A stretch of DNA of 24,179 nucleotides, taken from the IMG/VR virus record IMGVR_UViG_3300010354_000638, positions 1 through 24,179 of that record; one strand, 5' to 3'. Origin of the DNA: a virus. Within the stretch, counting starts at the first letter, position 1, and each line of letters begins with the position of its first letter. Made by a program: the position numbers and the translations under genes. Shown piece by piece: positions 12,773 through 24,179 of the stretch. A model generated the notes under the pieces. The model had not been told where the DNA came from, made no database searches, and worked only from the letters and a program-made list of their open reading frames with translations.

Positions 12773-13108
12773 ATGAGAAAACTTTGTACGATCTGTAAAC
12801 GAAAACCAGTGGCTATAAATTACGTAAAAGAGGGCAGAATATTTTACAGATCTAAATGTGATAGCTGTGCTAGAGGCGCTAAGTCTCTGAGACCTAAATG
12901 GCAGTTAACGGGTTATAAAAAGTCAAACAGATGTGATAAATGCGGGTGTACAAGTAGGTACAGTGAAGTTTTTGATGTATATCATATAGACGGAGATCTT
13001 AATAACTGTAGAATTACAAATTTAAAAACAGTCTGCGCTAATTGTCAACGTATCCTATTAATATTAGGCTTACCATGGAAGCAGGGAGATCTAACTCCTG
13101 ATCTTTAG
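12773..13108 (+). CDS. Small HNH endonuclease-like zinc protein
   Basis: A 111-residue protein on the strand opposite its neighbours. Two Cys4 zinc sites are visible: C5/C8 with C29/C32, and C54/C57 with C88/C91. The HNH-type core is the stretch YHIDGDLNNCRITNL (70-84), with H71 as the likely catalytic base and N83, and the second zinc site holding the fold. The canonical final His after the last Cys pair (CxxCH) is Gln here (CANCQ), so cutting may be weakened. Such free-standing HNH proteins are common in T4-like phages as homing endonucleases. It occupies the gap between gp18 and the dNMP kinase gene. Its last 18 bases overlap the end of the kinase gene tail to tail, which argues that it has been fixed there for some time. 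Confidence 0.85.
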   Translation: MRKLCTICKRKPVAINYVKEGRIFYRSKCDSCARGAKSLRPKWQLTGYKKSNRCDKCGCTSRYSEVFDVYHIDGDLNNCRITNLKTVCANCQRILLILGLPWKQGDLTPDL

Positions 13109-13798: not shown

Positions 13799-14605
13799 TT
13801 AGCCGATGTTAGAAAAGAAATCATTAAAAAGTTGTTCCTGTGTTTTGTCGCATCTCATACCTTTTGAATAATTTAACGACTTATCTAACATTCTTAAGTT
13901 CGTCCAATGTCCGATTATATAAGGGGGAATATTATCTCTAAATCCTTGCTGAATACTATAAATATGATCAAGGTCTATTTTACTTCTATTTAATCTTGTT
14001 GGATTTATTTTATCAAAATAATTTTTCCAACTTAATTTTGTAAAATAAACAACACGATCATAATATAATTGTCTTAAGCTTCTTAAGTGTCGCGGAGTTG
14101 CACCATTAGTAATATTTGCATCAGATAGTTTTTTCCTAATAATAAGATTTTTACTGGGATTGTCTACTCCATATTTTTTAATAAATGTTTGACGTTGTTT
14201 TTCTTTTTGTTCTTCTGTATATGTGTCTTTAGATCTATACTTTCTACCTTTTTTAACTGCAAGTATGTTTCCTTCTCTACGCTTTTGATTAATCTCTTCC
14301 GTAAAACTATTTTTAAAATCTCCTCGTAAATGCTGTCGTTTGATTCTTGCATTACGACTGGATGTTTCTAAATATCGATTTTCCCACCATTTAACTTCTA
14401 AGTTTGTAATAGGGCATTTAGGTATCTCCCATACATCAGTTAATATATGCCATACTCTTTGTTTAGGCATAGCATCATATGGTAAAAAATTAGTTTTTGC
14501 TAATATTTGATTCCATAACTCTGGATGAGTTTTGTATAAGTACCTAGTGGCCGATTTATTATAAGATTTATCATCGGCAATGATAGTTAAAAGTATATGT
14601 TTCAT
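13799..14605 (-). CDS. HNH homing endonuclease
   Basis: A 268-residue protein, very AT-rich compared with its neighbours. The C-terminal HNH core reads DLDHIYSIQQGFRDNIPP (211-228) and then IIGHWTNLRML, with H214, N236 and N245 in NYSKG as likely catalytic and metal residues; this is the arrangement of phage group-I-intron-like and free-standing HNH enzymes. The middle has a basic segment and KKYGVDNPSKNLIIRKKL (about 150-167), a DNA-binding NUMOD-like pattern common in phage endonucleases. These enzymes cut cognate loci lacking them and spread by repair. It has no Shine-Dalgarno sequence, but GATAAATA lies 5 bases upstream of the ATG. It separates gp13 from the kinase gene. Confidence 0.88.
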   Translation of the reverse strand: MKHILLTIIADDKSYNKSATRYLYKTHPELWNQILAKTNFLPYDAMPKQRVWHILTDVWEIPKCPITNLEVKWWENRYLETSSRNARIKRQHLRGDFKNSFTEEINQKRREGNILAVKKGRKYRSKDTYTEEQKEKQRQTFIKKYGVDNPSKNLIIRKKLSDANITNGATPRHLRSLRQLYYDRVVYFTKLSWKNYFDKINPTRLNRSKIDLDHIYSIQQGFRDNIPPYIIGHWTNLRMLDKSLNYSKGMRCDKTQEQLFNDFFSNIG

Positions 14606-15422: not shown

Positions 15423-16631
15423 ATGCCGCGTTTATCCTTTTACAAACCAGAGAAAGGCAATGACTATAAATTCATTGACCGAGCTATTTTAGAACAATTT
15501 CAAATAGGCGGTACAGAAGTACTAATCCACAAGTACCTAGGCCCTGTTGCACCTATAGAAGGAACCAGCACTCCGGGTACACCTATTAATACTAATCCCA
15601 TTGAAGAACTTGGTATACAAGATCTTATCCTAATGGAAAATAGAGATAGAAAATATGATCAAGATGTCTATGTGCTTAGAGGTATCTATACCATGCAGGA
15701 CATAGATTTTAATTTAAGTCAGTTTGGTTTATTTTTACAAAATGACAACGTAATGATTACCTTTCATCTTAATAACTCTGTTTCTATGCTAGGTAGAAAA
15801 ATAATGGCAGGTGATGTATTTGAGCTTCCGCATCTAAAAGATGAATATGCTCTCGATGATTCGATGGTTGCCTTAAAAAGATTTTATGTGGTTACAGATG
15901 TTTCAAGAGCTGCTAGCGGATTCAGTCAAACATGGTATCCTCATCTTATTAGAGCTAAATGTGAACCCTTGGTTGACAGTCAAGAATTCAAAGAAATTTT
16001 AGACAGTCCGGCAGGCGATGGAAACAAGACATTGCGAGATGTACTCAGTTTATACAGTAAAAATCTTGAAATTAATCAAGCCATTATAGCTGAAGCAGAA
16101 AGCAGCATCGACCTCAGCGGTTACGACCAACAACATCTGTTCACAGTTTCTGTAAACGATCAAGGATTAATTGATTTTATAGATTCTAGTAATGATGACC
16201 TAACAGTAGATTCACTAGGTCAAGGCGGTTTAGATTCTACCAGCGTAGTAAACACACCTAACAAGAATTTTTACGTTGGATATTTAACAGATGACGGTCT
16301 TCCGCCCAATGGCGCTCCCTACAGTTTTGGTATCGATTTTCCTGTTGAAAAGGCTCTAGGACAATATCATCTACGTACTGATTATTTCCCAAATAGACTG
16401 TTTAGATGGGACGGGTCGAGATGGATAAGGTTTGAAGATAATGTAAGAATGACCATGAACAATCTTGGAATTAATCAAACTTCAACTGGTACAGCATATG
16501 TCGGAAAAGATCCTAGACAAACACTCAAAGGTACATTTATTAATAATGTTAATACTGCCACGATAGGCGGACAGATAGTACAAGAGCGTCAGGCATTGAG
16601 TAAAATTTTACGCCCTAAGGCAGATAATTAA
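15423..16631 (+). CDS. 14: Neck protein (T4 gp14-like)
   Basis: A 402-residue protein, longer than T4 gp14 (256). The first 200 residues carry the recognisable part: EQFQIGGTEVLIHKYLGP, then IQDLILMENRDRKYDQDVYV, a strand and turn SQFGLFLQNDNVMITFHLNN, and GRKIMAGDVFELPHLKDEY with LKRFYVVTDVSRAASGFSQT, typical of the beta-sandwich of this neck family. The C-terminal half is extra: a helical linker, then GAPYSFGIDFPVEKALGQYH and NRLFRWDGSRWIRFED, a Trp motif that recurs in other virion proteins of this window. gp14 works with gp13 at the head-tail joint. The ATG at 15423 has no Shine-Dalgarno sequence; a perfect late box lies 7 bases upstream. gp15 follows after about 70 bases on the same strand. 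Confidence 0.8.
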   Translation: MPRLSFYKPEKGNDYKFIDRAILEQFQIGGTEVLIHKYLGPVAPIEGTSTPGTPINTNPIEELGIQDLILMENRDRKYDQDVYVLRGIYTMQDIDFNLSQFGLFLQNDNVMITFHLNNSVSMLGRKIMAGDVFELPHLKDEYALDDSMVALKRFYVVTDVSRAASGFSQTWYPHLIRAKCEPLVDSQEFKEILDSPAGDGNKTLRDVLSLYSKNLEINQAIIAEAESSIDLSGYDQQHLFTVSVNDQGLIDFIDSSNDDLTVDSLGQGGLDSTSVVNTPNKNFYVGYLTDDGLPPNGAPYSFGIDFPVEKALGQYHLRTDYFPNRLFRWDGSRWIRFEDNVRMTMNNLGINQTSTGTAYVGKDPRQTLKGTFINNVNTATIGGQIVQERQALSKILRPKADN

Positions 16632-16632
16632 T

Positions 16633-16686
16633 ATGTATATCTATAAAATTACATATATTCCAACAGACAAGGAGGCTTCGGTTTAA
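16633..16686 (+). pseudogene. Short ORF, possible GIY-YIG endonuclease remnant
   Basis: A 17-codon ORF beginning one base after the gp14 stop: MYIYKITYIPTDKEASV, ending in TAA. The first 11 residues match the usual opening of GIY-YIG homing endonucleases (YIYKIT....G..YIG), but the YIG half and everything after it are missing. It is in the same frame as gp15 and its stop lies in the loop of the hairpin ahead of gp15. It may be a degraded mobile endonuclease gene, or a leader peptide; the sequence is too short to decide. Confidence 0.4.
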
Positions 16687-16698
16687 CACCGGAGTAAT
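16669..16698 (+). promoter_or_regulatory. Split ribosome-binding site with hairpin upstream of gp15
   Basis: AAGGAGG (16669-16675) abuts a 7-bp stem (CTTCGGT at 16676-16682 with ACCGGAG at 16688-16694, one G-U pair) around loop TTAAC. After the stem come 4 bases and the proposed start codon at 16699. The linear distance from Shine-Dalgarno to start is 23 bases; with the hairpin folded it is 4. T4 genes 25 and 38 use the same device. Confidence 0.6.
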
Positions 16699-18120
16699 AT
16701 TATCGATCATTTTTACGACGGGCAACTTAAAAGATATCTTGCTCAGTTTATGAGATTAATGAGTAATTTCAGCTACAAAGATGGTAGAGGTAACCTAACC
16801 GAGGTACCGGTAAGATACGGTGACATGAATCGTCAAGTAGCGGCAATTTTGAAAAAGAATTCTGAAAATACCATACAAGGTGCTCCCTTCATTGCCTGTT
16901 ATATCAAAGATCTACAACATGACCGTGGTCGTATGCAGGATCCTACTTTTGTCAGTAAGGTCAATATACGAGAAAGAGAATTTGATGAGACTAACAATCA
17001 ATACCTTAATACTCAAGGGCCGGGTTATACCATTGAAAGGTTAATGCCTACACCTTATATGGTCACTTTTAACACAGATATATGGACCACAAACACAGAT
17101 CAAAAATTTCAATTATGGGAACAGATAACTGTACTTTTCAATCCTAGTCTAGAACTACAGAGCACAGATAATTATATAGATTGGTCCAGTCTTAGCGTAG
17201 TAGAACTTATCGGCCAGACATTTGATTCTAGATCTGTGCCTCAGGGATTAGAATCTGATATCAGCATAGCCACATTGTCATTTAATTGTCCAATCTGGAT
17301 TAATCCCCCGGCCAAGGTGAAAAAATTAGGCATCATAACAAAAATTATTACAAGTGTATTTGCCAGTGAGGCTATCAATGAACTCAGTCTGCCTGGCGCC
17401 TACAGTAATAAACCTTTGGCAAATTTATTTGACGATGATTCATTAATTTCTAAGTCTGCTATAACACCGGGTAATTTCAGTCTTGTAGTTTTAAACAATA
17501 CTGCTAACATTATATATGTGCCTGAAACAAATGAAAATGAATTTAAAAACGTGTCTATTAATGGAAAATCTAATTGGTATAAAATTCTAGATCTGTATCC
17601 TGGTCAATTTAGAGCTGGTCTCAGTCAAATTAGGCTAACAAAACCAGAAGGAACAGAAATTATAGCATATGCTAGACTTAATCCCAATGATGATTTTGAA
17701 ATGTTATTAAATTTTGATCAAGATACCGTACCAGATAATTCAATTTTTGGATCAAGAGGAACCATAGATGCTATTATAGATCCTCAAAATTTTGTTCCTG
17801 AAACCAAATCTGTTGGCTTGAGATATCTTGTTCTAGAAGACATTAATATCGAAAGAGATAATATCACAGGCTATAGCGGGCCTGAGGCATGGAAAAATTT
17901 AGACAATTCAGATTTACTTGTGGCCGCAAACAGTGTGATTGAATGGAATGGTTCGGCTTGGCAGGTATTATTAGACAGTAGAACAGAAAGAACTGTAAGG
18001 TATGTGACTAATAGTTACACAGGTATTCAATATAAGTGGGCCAGTATAGAAGGCGATTGGCAATGGACAAAGAGTTTTGAAGGGATTTATGATCCAGGAA
18101 AATGGCGTATTGTTCTATGA
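16699..18120 (+). CDS. 15: Tail completion / sheath stabiliser protein (T4 gp15-like), non-ATG start
   Basis: gp15 caps the finished tail and joins it to the neck. The first ATG in frame is at 16750, but the frame is open upstream to a TAA at 16684 and encodes IIDHFYDGQLKRYLAQF before that ATG, which continues the conserved N-terminal helix of the family and leads into MRLMSNFSYKDGRGNL. I therefore place the start at ATT 16699 (ATC at 16702 is also possible). That gives about 473 residues against 272 in T4. Core motifs are VPVRYGDMNRQVAAIL, GRMQDPTFVSKVNIRER, YTIERLMPTPYMVTFNTDIW and VLFNPSLELQSTDNYIDWSS. The C-terminal 250 residues are extra and include VIEWNGSAWQVLLD and GDWQWTKSF, the Trp motif also seen in gp14, sheath and fibres. 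The end overlaps the Nudix gene. Confidence 0.88.
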   Translation: MIDHFYDGQLKRYLAQFMRLMSNFSYKDGRGNLTEVPVRYGDMNRQVAAILKKNSENTIQGAPFIACYIKDLQHDRGRMQDPTFVSKVNIREREFDETNNQYLNTQGPGYTIERLMPTPYMVTFNTDIWTTNTDQKFQLWEQITVLFNPSLELQSTDNYIDWSSLSVVELIGQTFDSRSVPQGLESDISIATLSFNCPIWINPPAKVKKLGIITKIITSVFASEAINELSLPGAYSNKPLANLFDDDSLISKSAITPGNFSLVVLNNTANIIYVPETNENEFKNVSINGKSNWYKILDLYPGQFRAGLSQIRLTKPEGTEIIAYARLNPNDDFEMLLNFDQDTVPDNSIFGSRGTIDAIIDPQNFVPETKSVGLRYLVLEDINIERDNITGYSGPEAWKNLDNSDLLVAANSVIEWNGSAWQVLLDSRTERTVRYVTNSYTGIQYKWASIEGDWQWTKSFEGIYDPGKWRIVL

Positions 18121-20441: not shown

Positions 20442-23400
20442 CTATGATTTTACCAGACATTCTACAAGGTCGTCTTGTCCGTCAGCCAGGGCAAAGGCAA
20501 AGGGCCTGCTACCATTGGAAACTGTCCATGCGTGTCCATCGTCGCATGGATATAGAGGATCATTCTTTTTGACTGCACCCCGAATTTTTACCCTAGTTCT
20601 TCCCAGCAGTGCTATAGGTTGTCCATCAGACTCACTGTTCATTGTGAAAGCTGGATTTTCGCTTATAACACCTAGAACATATTCAGTAGTAATATCAGCC
20701 TGAGTGGCTTCTTGTGATCCGCCTAGTTTGACCACTGTGCCTATGGAATATTTTTGATCAGTTAGGTATTTTTCAGCTATGTCAGCATACCTAGCTGTGA
20801 CAGCAGTGCCATGGAATATATTTGCTGATACTTCTGTAGCGGAAATACCGGCTCCGTTAACGCCGTTGAATGCAAATCCAGTCATGTAGGTGTTTGAATC
20901 ATAGGCTTTGAAGGTTGCATGACTTACTGTAATAGAGGGATATTGCCCGGCTCCTGTTTGAAAATATAATGCACTTGCTATGCCTACAGACGTACCATTA
21001 ATAACTATTCTCGGAACATAAATTTCATAGCTGTTCCAGAAAAAATTCACATTGGTAGTAACAGCAGTACCGTTAGAGTTTATAAACAGTATTCTATTGG
21101 CGCCTCCTCCTATACCAGCTAAGTCAAAAGTTCCCGGACTGCCAGTATAACCTATAGAACCTGTATATCCACGGCTTCCGTCGTAACCTGTAAATCCGCG
21201 GCTACCTGTATTACCATCACGACCGATACTGCCTGTATTTCCTGTAAATCCTAGACTACCTGTAAGACCCGCACTACCTGTGAATCCAGTAAATCCCCTA
21301 TCTCCTTGACTACCTGTATTACCCGCACTACCTGTGAATCCAGTAAATCCTCGGGCGCCTTCACTACCTGTGCGCCCTTCACTACCTGTGAATCCAGTAA
21401 ATCCCCTATCTCCTTGACTACCAGTGAATCCTCTGCTACCCGCAAAACCTTCGCCTCCTCGGTTACCCGGACTACCTGTGTAACCAACTGATCCAGTAAA
21501 TCCTTGAAATCCCCTTATACCTTGACTGCCTATATATCCTGCTGATGGGCTACCTGTAAATCCTCTACTACCAGCTGCTCCAGTACTACCTGTACGACTT
21601 TGGCTACCAGTGTAACCTGCTGATGGGCTACCTGTAAATCCTATGCTACCGGTACGACCTGTGCTTCCATCCCTACCCACTGAACCTTGGAAACCTGCTG
21701 CTGAACTACCAGTTAATCCTCGACTACCTATGAAACCCGTACTACCTACACGACCTTGGCTACCCGAATAACCGCCTACCCCAGAACTACCAGTGAATCC
21801 TTGACTACCAACGTGTCCTCTACTACCAATATTACCTTGCGAACCTGTGTAACCTGCTGATGGACTACCAGTGAATCCTCTACTACCAGCTACTCCGGCA
21901 CTACCTGTACGGCTTTGGCTACCAGTCCAACCTGGTGATGGACTACCATCAAAACCTCTACTTCCCGTATGTCCTCTACTACCATCCTTACCTGCCGCAC
22001 CAGTGCTGCCTGTGTTACCAGTGCTGCCGTCATTACCCGGACTACCTGTATACCCTCTTTGAGCAGCAGATCCGTAGAATCCAGTAATCCCTGCTGATCC
22101 TCTGTGTCCAACACTGCCTTGATCTCCTACACTTCCATCAGGGCCTGTACTACCTCTAAAACCTACTGATCCCTGTCGACCTACACTGCCTTGATGTCCA
22201 GGAAGACCTTGATCTCCTTGACTTCCGTCAAAACCTGCAGATCCCTTAAATCCTACTGATCCCTGTCGACCTGTACCAGGTGAACCTTGAAAACCCTCTG
22301 AACCTCTGAATCCCACAGAACCTCTGAATCCTACACTGCCGTCGGCACCTTCTAGGCCTGCTATACCTGGTGAACCTTGAAATCCAGCAGACCCTTTGAA
22401 ACCTTCTGAACCTCTAGCTCCCACAGACCCTGTGACACCTGCAGATCCTCTATAACCTGGATCTCCTGGACTTCCTACAAAGCCTACACTGCCTGACCAA
22501 CCAGGACTTCCAACGTGTCCCCGACTGCCTGCTGCTCCTTCACTACCTGTGTAACTCTGACTACCAGTAAATCCTCTACTTCCTGTATACCCAATACTTC
22601 CTGTGTAGCCTAATTCACCTTGACTACCTACATACCCCTGTGATCCTACGTATCCTTGACTGCCTGTATAACCTTGGCTTCCCGTGTGCCCTTGTGAACC
22701 CGCATACCCTTCACTACCTACATAACCAGATCCTTCACTGCCTGTATAGCCCTGGCTACCTGAGTAACCAATTGAACCCGCATATCCTTCACTACCTACA
22801 TAACCAGCTCCTTCACTGCCTGTATAGCCCTGGCTACCTGAGTAACCAATTGAACCCGCATATCCTTCACTACCTACATAACCAGCTCCTTCACTGCCTG
22901 TATAACCTTGACTGCCGGTAAAACCTATAGATCCTGAAAAACCTTGTTCTCCTTGACTGCCTGCTACGCCAACCGATCCTAAAAATCCTGAACTACCTGT
23001 AAATCCCTGACTGCCTGCAGCACCTGTACTACCATTGTTACCTGTTGAGCCAGCTACACCTGCACTGCCTGTATAACCTTGGCTACCAGTCAAACCTATT
23101 CCTATGCTACCTGAAAATCCCAATTCTCCCCGACTGCCAGTTAGTCCGATAGGTCCTTGACTGCCGGTATGTCCTGTGCTGCCTACAAAACCTTGACTGC
23201 CCGAAGGTCCTGGTAGAGTTTCACCGGGGCTACCAGTATAACCCGGACTTCCGTCAAATCCTCTTCCTTGACTACCTGTATGTCCTCGACTGCCTGAAGG
23301 GCCTGGAATATCGCTGGCACTACCTGTGAATCCTGTTCCTTCTGATCCAGTATAACCTAGACTACCTGTATTTCCAACGGAACCACCTACACCTGCTCCC

Positions 23401-24179
23401 ACTGACCCTGTGAATCCTGTTCCTTCTGATCCAGTATAACCTAGACTACCTGTTGCGCCAGTTGATCCGTCAGCACCCACACTACCACTATGGCCACGAC
23501 TTCCAGTATGTCCTATACTACCGTAAAATCCCTGATCTCCACGACTTCCAGTACGACCTGTGCTACCGTCTCTTCCAACGGATCCTGTGTGGCCTATACT
23601 TCCTGTGAATGCTCGACTGCCTGTAAATCCCTGACTTCCGTCATTACCCAGGCTTCCTGCAACACCTGCACTGCCTGTAAAACCCGCACTGCCTCTAAAT
23701 CCCTGTGATCCAGTATATCCCTCAGATCCAGTATAACCTTCTGGGGGGCCTGGATCGCCCTTGTCACCTTTACTACCAGTAAAACCAAAACTACCTACGA
23801 AACCAGCTTGTGCTACAGTGGTGCTGAAAAATGGTCCAGTGGTATCTACCCAAACAAGTTTTTCACCATCGTCTACTAATTCATAGTGTGTGTCAGTGCT
23901 TGGTTGATACCATATATCACCTTCTCGTGCTATAAGATTTGAAGGAGGATTTTCTGTGCTATAATAATTTGGAATGCGAAAACTTGGGCGTCCACCGTGA
24001 TCAATAGGCTGTCCATCTGGTACAGTTAGTCCCTGTAAAAATATAGTCTGTGTGCTGTCTACAATTATTCTACCGCCCGATGTAGCCGTTAATTTTATAT
24101 CAAGAGCAGGTAGATTAGGAGTGATTTCTCCTAGATTAAATTCTAAATTGCCTAGACTACTTGCATAACTAGTTCTCCA
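20442..24179 (-). CDS. Collagen-like giant tail fibre protein, partial (N-terminus beyond right edge)
   Basis: The frame is open from 24179 to the TAG at 20442, giving at least 1245 residues with no start codon in the first 230, so the true start lies outside the window. The visible N-terminal part (about 125 residues) is beta-rich and holds REGDIWYQPSTDTHYELVDD and LVWVDTTGPF, the Trp motif shared with the sheath. About 885 residues of Gly-x-y triplets follow (plus positions about 21133-23800), mostly with a six-residue period G-x-x-G-S-x (GYTGSQGYTGSE) and few Pro; short breaks such as GSPSAGYTGS interrupt it. This should form a long collagen-type triple helix. The C-terminal 200 residues form a globular domain with RYADIAEKYLTDQKYSIGTV and GVISENPAFTMN, a common phage fibre end domain resembling the Peptidase_G2-type chaperone family; self-cleavage is not shown here. 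Confidence 0.92.
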   Translation of the reverse strand, partial: WRTSYASSLGNLEFNLGEITPNLPALDIKLTATSGGRIIVDSTQTIFLQGLTVPDGQPIDHGGRPSFRIPNYYSTENPPSNLIAREGDIWYQPSTDTHYELVDDGEKLVWVDTTGPFFSTTVAQAGFVGSFGFTGSKGDKGDPGPPEGYTGSEGYTGSQGFRGSAGFTGSAGVAGSLGNDGSQGFTGSRAFTGSIGHTGSVGRDGSTGRTGSRGDQGFYGSIGHTGSRGHSGSVGADGSTGATGSLGYTGSEGTGFTGSVGAGVGGSVGNTGSLGYTGSEGTGFTGSASDIPGPSGSRGHTGSQGRGFDGSPGYTGSPGETLPGPSGSQGFVGSTGHTGSQGPIGLTGSRGELGFSGSIGIGLTGSQGYTGSAGVAGSTGNNGSTGAAGSQGFTGSSGFLGSVGVAGSQGEQGFSGSIGFTGSQGYTGSEGAGYVGSEGYAGSIGYSGSQGYTGSEGAGYVGSEGYAGSIGYSGSQGYTGSEGSGYVGSEGYAGSQGHTGSQGYTGSQGYVGSQGYVGSQGELGYTGSIGYTGSRGFTGSQSYTGSEGAAGSRGHVGSPGWSGSVGFVGSPGDPGYRGSAGVTGSVGARGSEGFKGSAGFQGSPGIAGLEGADGSVGFRGSVGFRGSEGFQGSPGTGRQGSVGFKGSAGFDGSQGDQGLPGHQGSVGRQGSVGFRGSTGPDGSVGDQGSVGHRGSAGITGFYGSAAQRGYTGSPGNDGSTGNTGSTGAAGKDGSRGHTGSRGFDGSPSPGWTGSQSRTGSAGVAGSRGFTGSPSAGYTGSQGNIGSRGHVGSQGFTGSSGVGGYSGSQGRVGSTGFIGSRGLTGSSAAGFQGSVGRDGSTGRTGSIGFTGSPSAGYTGSQSRTGSTGAAGSRGFTGSPSAGYIGSQGIRGFQGFTGSVGYTGSPGNRGGEGFAGSRGFTGSQGDRGFTGFTGSEGRTGSEGARGFTGFTGSAGNTGSQGDRGFTGFTGSAGLTGSLGFTGNTGSIGRDGNTGSRGFTGYDGSRGYTGSIGYTGSPGTFDLAGIGGGANRILFINSNGTAVTTNVNFFWNSYEIYVPRIVINGTSVGIASALYFQTGAGQYPSITVSHATFKAYDSNTYMTGFAFNGVNGAGISATEVSANIFHGTAVTARYADIAEKYLTDQKYSIGTVVKLGGSQEATQADITTEYVLGVISENPAFTMNSESDGQPIALLGRTRVKIRGAVKKNDPLYPCDDGHAWTVSNGSRPFAFALADGQDDLVECLVKS
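22741..22896 (-). repeat. Perfect 78-bp tandem duplication in the collagen-like region
   Basis: Bases 22741-22818 and 22819-22896 are identical. Each encodes 26 residues of the GYAGSIGYSGSQ...GAGYVGSE type. A further 40-odd bases to the left (about 22697-22740) are a near copy with two or three differences. Zero synonymous difference means a recent duplication or ongoing homogenisation. Confidence 0.92.
23323..23452 (-). repeat. Perfect 46-bp direct repeat in the collagen-like region
   Basis: Bases 23323-23368 and 23407-23452 are identical, 84 bases (28 codons) apart, and encode SLGYTGSEGTGFTG-type sequence. This is a second recent in-frame duplication in the same gene. Confidence 0.88.

Follow-up and report, generated by a model that had tools for sequence, protein, structure and literature searches.

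The window analyzed here is a 24,179-nt virus record whose source is a T4-like phage, and the features of interest lie around the junction of two of its genes (Table 1). The upstream gene encodes a gp14-like neck protein, which we take to be gp14 from the gene order of T4, and it is followed by a short open reading frame (mini-ORF), a Shine-Dalgarno (SD) sequence, a hairpin, and the gene for gp15. In a profile search the gp15 product matches PF16724 with 88.7 bits against a cut-off of 25 (residues 3–223), and it also matches by profile the gp15 structures PDB 4huh and 3j2m, with the alignment to T4 gp15 running from residue 4 of the solved protein. In relatives the TAA of the gp14-like gene either overlaps the gp15 start or directly precedes it. 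The codons of the mini-ORF (16633–16686) are ATG TAT ATC TAT AAA ATT ACA TAT ATT CCA ACA GAC AAG GAG GCT TCG GTT TAA, and from the 3′ end of the hairpin the sequence continues with TAAT, ATT (16699–16701), ATC (16702–16704), and GAT CAT TTT TAC.

Table 1. Features at the gp14/gp15 junction of the window.
Feature	Position	Strand	Remarks
gp14-like neck-protein gene	15423..16631	+	Ends in KADN before the stop; no Pfam match
Mini-ORF, MYIYKITYIPTDKEASV then stop	16633..16686	+	Stop codon TAA at 16684–16686
Shine-Dalgarno sequence AAGGAGG	16669..16675	+	Within the mini-ORF; conserved in the element
Hairpin between SD and start	16676..16694	+	Stem of 6–7 bp; loop contains the mini-ORF UAA
7-nt spacer TAATATT, hairpin to probable start	16695..16701	+	Includes the ATT (16699–16701) of the original prediction
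Probable start codon AUC (codon X)	16702..16704	+	AUG position in AUG-type relatives
gp15, tail sheath stabilizer/completion protein (PF16724)	16702..18120	+	472 codons plus stop
First in-frame ATG (MRLMSNF)	16750..16752	+	Not the start; an internal codon, in whose place relatives often have Ile

Three other open reading frames of the window are of note. A collagen-like ORF of GxTGS/GYTGS repeats (20442–24179, minus strand) exceeds 1,000 residues, runs off the end of the window and probably encodes a tail fiber or adhesin. A small ORF near the tail genes (12773–13108, plus strand) has a weak, below-cut-off HNH match and is possibly homing-endonuclease-like, and a 268-residue ORF with a weak DUF7487 match (13799–14605, minus strand), flanked by a deoxynucleotide monophosphate kinase and a gene 13-like ORF, has the appearance of a mobile insert.

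Direct reading confirms that the gp15 frame, which is uninterrupted after the TAA at 16684–16686, contains no ATG, GTG or TTG until 16750. The ATG at that position is nevertheless ruled out as the true start by strong coding constraint upstream of it. We refer to the codon three before FYD, which is invariant in the gp15 N-terminus of relatives, as codon X, and the stretch that follows it lies mostly upstream of the first ATG of the window. Among 107 distinct non-AUG relatives this stretch has an N/S ratio of 0.056 in the gp15 frame versus 1.6 and 2.3 in the other two frames, with values of 0.050 where X is AUH (AUU, AUC or AUA) and 0.076 where X is UCG. The proposal that gp15 begins upstream of 16750 is therefore upheld, the upstream stretch being under the coding constraint of gp15 itself.

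The unusual start is not peculiar to the window. Protein-based, element and start-region scans of public contigs yielded 195 distinct gp15 5′ regions, 113 of them without a standard start, although the start-region scans selected AUH or UCG and the proportions in the whole set are biased accordingly. In all 113, X is an Ile codon (ATT, ATC or ATA) or the Ser codon TCG. The element scans, which were blind to the start codon, gave 24 distinct sequences, every one of which precedes gp15 and 23 of which have exactly 7 nt between the hairpin and X; here X is AUH in 22 and UCG in two, and never AUG, GUG or UUG. Ascertainment by protein gave 89 distinct regions, of which 12 are of the non-AUG type. 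That gp15 has a non-AUG start, as had been suggested, is thus borne out by its recurrence in relatives that also have no standard start. All of the non-AUG examples come from metagenomic contigs; a cultured phage with the element was not found, and the isolates with a distant gp15 that were checked (Atu_ph07, Phosso, PA5oct, SCTP-2, 121Q, and a Vibrio phage) have ordinary starts in their annotations. On the gp15 tree (FastTree) the AUG, AUH with hairpin, AUH without hairpin, and UCG states are interspersed, with at least 26 changes between AUG and non-AUG, 17 of them forced by well-supported branches, counts that rest on the FastTree topology and on some long branches. Such a distribution fits an element that is mobile and is exchanged horizontally.

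The hairpin consists of the arms CTTCGGT (16676–16682) and ACCGGAG (16688–16694) around the loop TTAAC, and it is present in both the minimum free energy and centroid structures of the 141 nt that were folded (−26.5 kcal/mol, z −2.4). As originally described, and as is evident by direct reading, AAGGAGG is followed by a 7-bp hairpin and folding reduces the distance from the SD to the ATT from 23 to 4 nt. Among 25 distinct elements 86% of the cells are paired and five of the six pairs have changed on both sides, with compensated arms such as CAACAG/CTGTTG, CAATAG/CTATTG, CGACAG/CTGTCG, and CATTGG/CCAATG; the covariation score is 0.375 versus 0.04–0.16 for slid registers, and none of 500 shuffles scored as high. 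When the hairpin loci were fitted to a fixed geometry, with one or two extra nucleotides permitted, 61 of 70 had exactly the order SD, 6-nt arm, 7-nt loop, 6-nt arm, 7 nt, and X, with no extra nucleotide. This geometry and the covariation support the proposed likeness to T4 genes 25 and 38, in which a hairpin also splits the SD from the start. In most elements (including L058, L074, L025, and L060) the 3′ arm ends in NUG (AUG, UUG, GUG or CUG), which is out of frame with gp15 and is replaced by GAG in the window, and which may reflect mere pairing or a decoy start. Initiation at this NUG (CCGATG/CCGTTG) followed by a frameshift was considered and rejected, as several such frames run at once into stops (ATG TAA in L062 and ATG TAT TAA in L074).

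The precise position of the start can be approached from both the AUG-type relatives and the alleles that have no hairpin. The AUG of the AUG-type relatives precedes FYD by three codons (MDYFYDG) or by four (MSDHFYDG), and AUC 16702 aligns with the AUG of those that read MDYFYDG or MEHFYDG. X likewise occupies the AUG position of the nearest AUG-type relative in three comparisons (L110 vs. L113, L231 vs. L127, and the window vs. L001/L002): L113 reads AATTA ATG GAT TAT where L110 reads ACTAAA TCG GAT TAT, with TCG in the place of ATG, and L001/L002, the nearest relatives of the window, read ATG GAT TAC/TAT. The ATC of the window lies 26 nt from the SD, or 7 nt without the 19-nt hairpin, and the hairpin-less alleles L008, L150, and L157, which came from protein scans without any spacing condition, retain AAGGAG, 7 nt, and AUH. 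The hairpin is absent from these alleles yet the 7 nt are kept; of all the sequence evidence, this argues most strongly that the role of the hairpin is to bring the SD and X together and that X would be the start. Since these alleles keep 7 nt and X is in the place of AUG, gp15 in the window most likely starts at AUC 16702 rather than at the preceding codon, AUU 16699, which was the original choice. AUU does serve as a start in infC (PMC5472188), and this one does sit between the hairpin and gp15, only 4 nt past the former. However, when its conservation was checked, the site in relatives was found to hold AAA, ACA, CAA, ACT, GTT, and others, while only AUH or UCG follows it, and the hairpin-less alleles have 7 rather than 4 nt between the SD and AUH. 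A start at AUU 16699 is thus improbable, and AUC 16702 fits better with both the AUG of relatives and the constant 7-nt gap.

The nature of the start codon is closely tied to the presence of an SD. Among the protein-ascertained loci an SD is found at only 4 of 77 AUG starts, the typical junction of which is TAATG, but at all 12 of the non-AUG starts (Fisher p 8e-12), and the median anti-SD duplex is −5.0 kcal/mol for the AUG type and −9.3 kcal/mol for the non-AUG type. On the gp15 tree the third base of AUH has undergone at least 22 changes, none of them to G (p ~1e-4 given equal rates), and AUG is thus avoided although it lies a single step from AUH. The rule that pairs an SD with a non-AUG codon is strong but not absolute, with exceptions in L009, which has a strong SD and AUG but no hairpin, and in L165, which has a weaker SD with AUG. 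The gp15 of T4 forms one six-membered ring per tail. The simplest reading is that the two arrangements would set the dose of gp15, either by a strong SD with a poor codon or by a coupled AUG without an SD, and the suggestion that the non-AUG start limits gp15 is, from this pairing, probably right. An excess of gp15 would presumably be harmful, and our search of the literature returned nothing direct on such harm.

The UCG alleles are a special case. They make up 27 of the 107 distinct sequences, a set that is partly scan-selected, and UCG differs from AUG at two bases. An in-frame near-cognate (one-mismatch) codon is absent from 15 of 25 distinct UCG loci, and the base before every UCG is A, which creates an out-of-frame AUC one base upstream, or else an in-frame AUC or AUU precedes it. 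There have been at least 16 switches between AUH and UCG on the gp15 tree. A distant gp15 clade that has no hairpin (L266, L268, L280, L243, and L246) shows AAA-AUH (ATC or ATT) as well as AAA-TCG behind GAGG, and the AUH/UCG alternation therefore extends beyond the hairpin element. UCG at X goes beyond an ordinary rare start of the AUU type. An M-S start with UCG as codon 2 was rejected since L110 and L113 put UCG in the AUG position itself, although such a start is possible for the subset in which AUC or AUU comes just before UCG. Other possible explanations for the UCG alleles are placement independent of the codon, slippage by one base from AUC at an early stage, or a tRNA of unknown kind.

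The first of these can be generalized, in that the SD, the hairpin and a terminating ribosome would put any codon located 7 nt on into the P site, with AUH and UCG simply being the two surviving ends of the element. The UCG alleles have the same geometry and are under the same coding constraint as the others, and the majority of the UCG loci offer no near-cognate codon in frame, all of which fits. Free positioning would, however, permit many different codons, whereas X has remained AUH or UCG through all of these switches, and an in vitro survey found that only Watson-Crick pairs are tolerated at codon bases 1 and 2 (PMC10158994). As a general account we therefore regard codon-independent initiation as rather unlikely. 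The narrower proposal, that a mobile element consisting of the SD, the hairpin with its loop stop and the 7-nt spacer directs translation to begin at a set position where there is no cognate or near-cognate codon, and that UCG alleles lacking a one-mismatch codon are functional, is put forward tentatively and with more doubt than conviction. The UCG alleles do pose the question of whether an SD plus structure alone can define a bacterial start. The same in vitro study reported that initiation at AUH with the ordinary initiator tRNA is very poor in the presence of IF3 and that initiator tRNAs with matching anticodons work well (PMC10158994), as would be needed if a phage or host initiator tRNA with an altered anticodon reads AUH and UCG. 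Yet the loci share no unusual tRNA, nine of 12 records have none at all, and the tRNAs in the 183-kb record of L285 are limited to Arg, Leu, and Met(CAU). Such a tRNA is therefore very unlikely, although the records are partial and AUG is in use at other genes, which leaves it some room.

The origin of the element can probably be traced to a homing endonuclease gene (HEG). In some relatives the ORF upstream of gp15 is full-length (169–187 residues), and in all five of those tested it contains a GIY-YIG domain (PF01541) that scores above the 22.6-bit cut-off. These full-length copies begin with MYIYKFTH or MHIYKFTH at the end of gp14, where empty alleles have the AUG of gp15, and they mostly end in GKRVW..KEASV and a stop, or similar, with the last codons forming the SD and the 5′ arm of the hairpin. 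One 369-kb record with a full-length GIY-YIG gene and a UCG-type gp15 (L228) has 47 tRNA matches. Other loci have short in-frame shells of 46 (L028), 19 (L025) or 15 codons (L060), the minimum being MEASV and a stop. The window lacks an intact GIY-YIG domain and has 17 codons left, and by this comparison its mini-ORF is, in all likelihood, the remnant of a GIY-YIG HEG after in-frame internal deletion, one that holds the old ATG of gp15. This remnant, with its stop in the hairpin loop, had escaped notice in the original prediction.

In 63 of the 70 hairpin loci the loop stop terminates an ORF that has a start; six lack the start and one lacks a stop at that place. The frame leading to the loop stop is kept in 20 of 25 distinct short HEG remnants that have the endonuclease N-terminus, as opposed to an expectation of one third (p 2e-6), and in L285 and L312 the loop stop is UGA in place of UAA. 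L281, which has no upstream ORF, has lost the loop stop, and in most of the hairpin-less alleles the UAA of gp14 itself overlaps the SD. Selection appears to have favored termination in the loop, which suggests that initiation is coupled to it. Re-initiation in E. coli seems to be carried out by a 30S subunit; it requires IF2, and an SD lowers its sensitivity to IF3 (PMC2268962). Coupling to the mini-ORF is not obligatory, because seven hairpin loci, including L058, L059, L074, and L227, have no ORF that ends in the loop.

Two further alternatives would make direct use of the upstream ORF. Stop readthrough, or programmed bypassing like that of gene 60, would produce an HEG-gp15 fusion, and indeed the loop stop is in frame with gp15 in 61 of the 70 hairpin loci and a stop within a hairpin recalls gene 60. 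However, the four loci just named and the hairpin-less alleles have no such ORF, five others (L110, L115, L231, L070, and L063) are out of frame, several (L025, L085, and L089) have a further in-frame TGA, and matching take-off and landing codons were not found, so that a fusion is highly improbable. Removal of the insert from the mRNA in the manner of an intron, such that ATG 16633–16635 is rejoined to GAT 16705, is even harder to credit. Dropping 16636–16704 does recreate the arrangement of the AUG-type relatives, but the insert is just 69 nt long, Rfam covariance models gave no ribozyme or intron match (E up to 5), the only match being a chance snoRNA far below the gathering score, and L058, L074, L227, and the hairpin-less alleles have no ATG to rejoin. 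Finally, a sequencing or assembly error, with ATG misread as ATT or ATC, is refuted by the recurrence of non-AUG codons in about 100 distinct 5′ regions on contigs from independent metagenomes.

We propose that HEG capture, followed by an SD-anchored, termination-coupled start at a poor codon that caps the gp15 dose, is the best overall explanation for this locus, and we consider it probable, if well short of certain. A GIY-YIG HEG would have inserted at the gp14/gp15 junction and taken the native AUG of gp15, leaving gp15 with a replacement module made up of the SD AAGGAGG, a hairpin that gives an effective spacing of 7 nt, and a non-AUG start, presumably AUC 16702 in this case. The HEG of the window would subsequently have collapsed to its 17-codon in-frame remnant, with the stop still in the hairpin loop. 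Ribosomes that finish the remnant, or gp14 where there is no remnant, would terminate on or next to the SD, which would anchor the 30S subunit while the hairpin folds between the SD and the start, and initiation at X would then be inefficient. The poor codon would thereby counterbalance the strong SD and keep gp15 scarce. The module, the covariation of its stem, the constancy of the spacing, the way in which AUG is avoided, the association of the SD with non-AUG codons, and the retention of frame by the mini-ORFs are all apparent in the sequences that we compared; they suggest that initiation may occur at X, that it is coupled to termination, and that dosage may be the reason.

If correct, nature would here provide a case, repeated and spread by horizontal exchange, of a selfish gene that steals the start codon of a host gene, with the robbed gene surviving thanks to an SD that a hairpin accommodates and a start that is poor by design. 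Because AUG without an SD contrasts with non-AUG with a strong SD, the idea that the start codon sets the dose can be put to a direct test. Moreover, AUC, AUU, AUA, and UCG starts are missed by gene finders, and hence the annotation of every such phage probably shortens or misplaces a tail gene that is essential.

Our literature search, which left most subscription journals outside its coverage, found no paper on this combination of elements, but its parts can be compared with several known systems. In the bypassing of T4 gene 60, a stop codon is located in a hairpin beside a homing-endonuclease-related insert. The present element differs in that it has no matching take-off and landing codons and in that many alleles have no upstream ORF or have one that is out of frame. 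A closer resemblance is to T4 genes 25 and 38, where a hairpin between the SD and AUG shortens the spacing from 27 to 11 nt and from 22 to 5 nt, respectively (PMC3014915, reviewing Nivinskas 1999; Malys and Nivinskas 2009). Here the effective spacing is similarly reduced, from 26 to 7 nt, and in both cases late tail genes of T4-like phages are involved. Genes 25 and 38 have AUG, in contrast to the 24 element-selected loci, none of which has AUG, GUG or UUG, and the present element is tied to an HEG, has an upstream ORF that stops in the hairpin loop, and is patchy on the gp15 tree.

The start codons themselves recall infC, whose E. coli and Streptomyces versions begin with AUU and AUC, respectively, and the GUC of sigR, which is limited by IF3 (PMC5472188). 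AUU, AUC or AUA behind an SD is likewise found at the putative start in the window and in all AUH-class loci, and in both instances a non-AUG start would keep expression low. In the infC type IF3 acts on cellular regulators, however, whereas here a phage structural gene is concerned, its SD is accommodated by a hairpin, and there is a UCG class. GIY-YIG endonucleases of the free-standing (seg) kind frequently occur between the genes of T4 (PMC2988022), and the HEG described here resembles them in its domain and in its insertion between conserved genes, but differs in that it seems to take the start codon of gp15, its 3′ junction would provide a new non-AUG start, and most of its copies are in-frame remnants. 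Hence, the separate parts are known, with the split ribosome-binding site of T4 genes 25 and 38 and the AUU of infC as examples, while their combination in one mobile element seems to be new.
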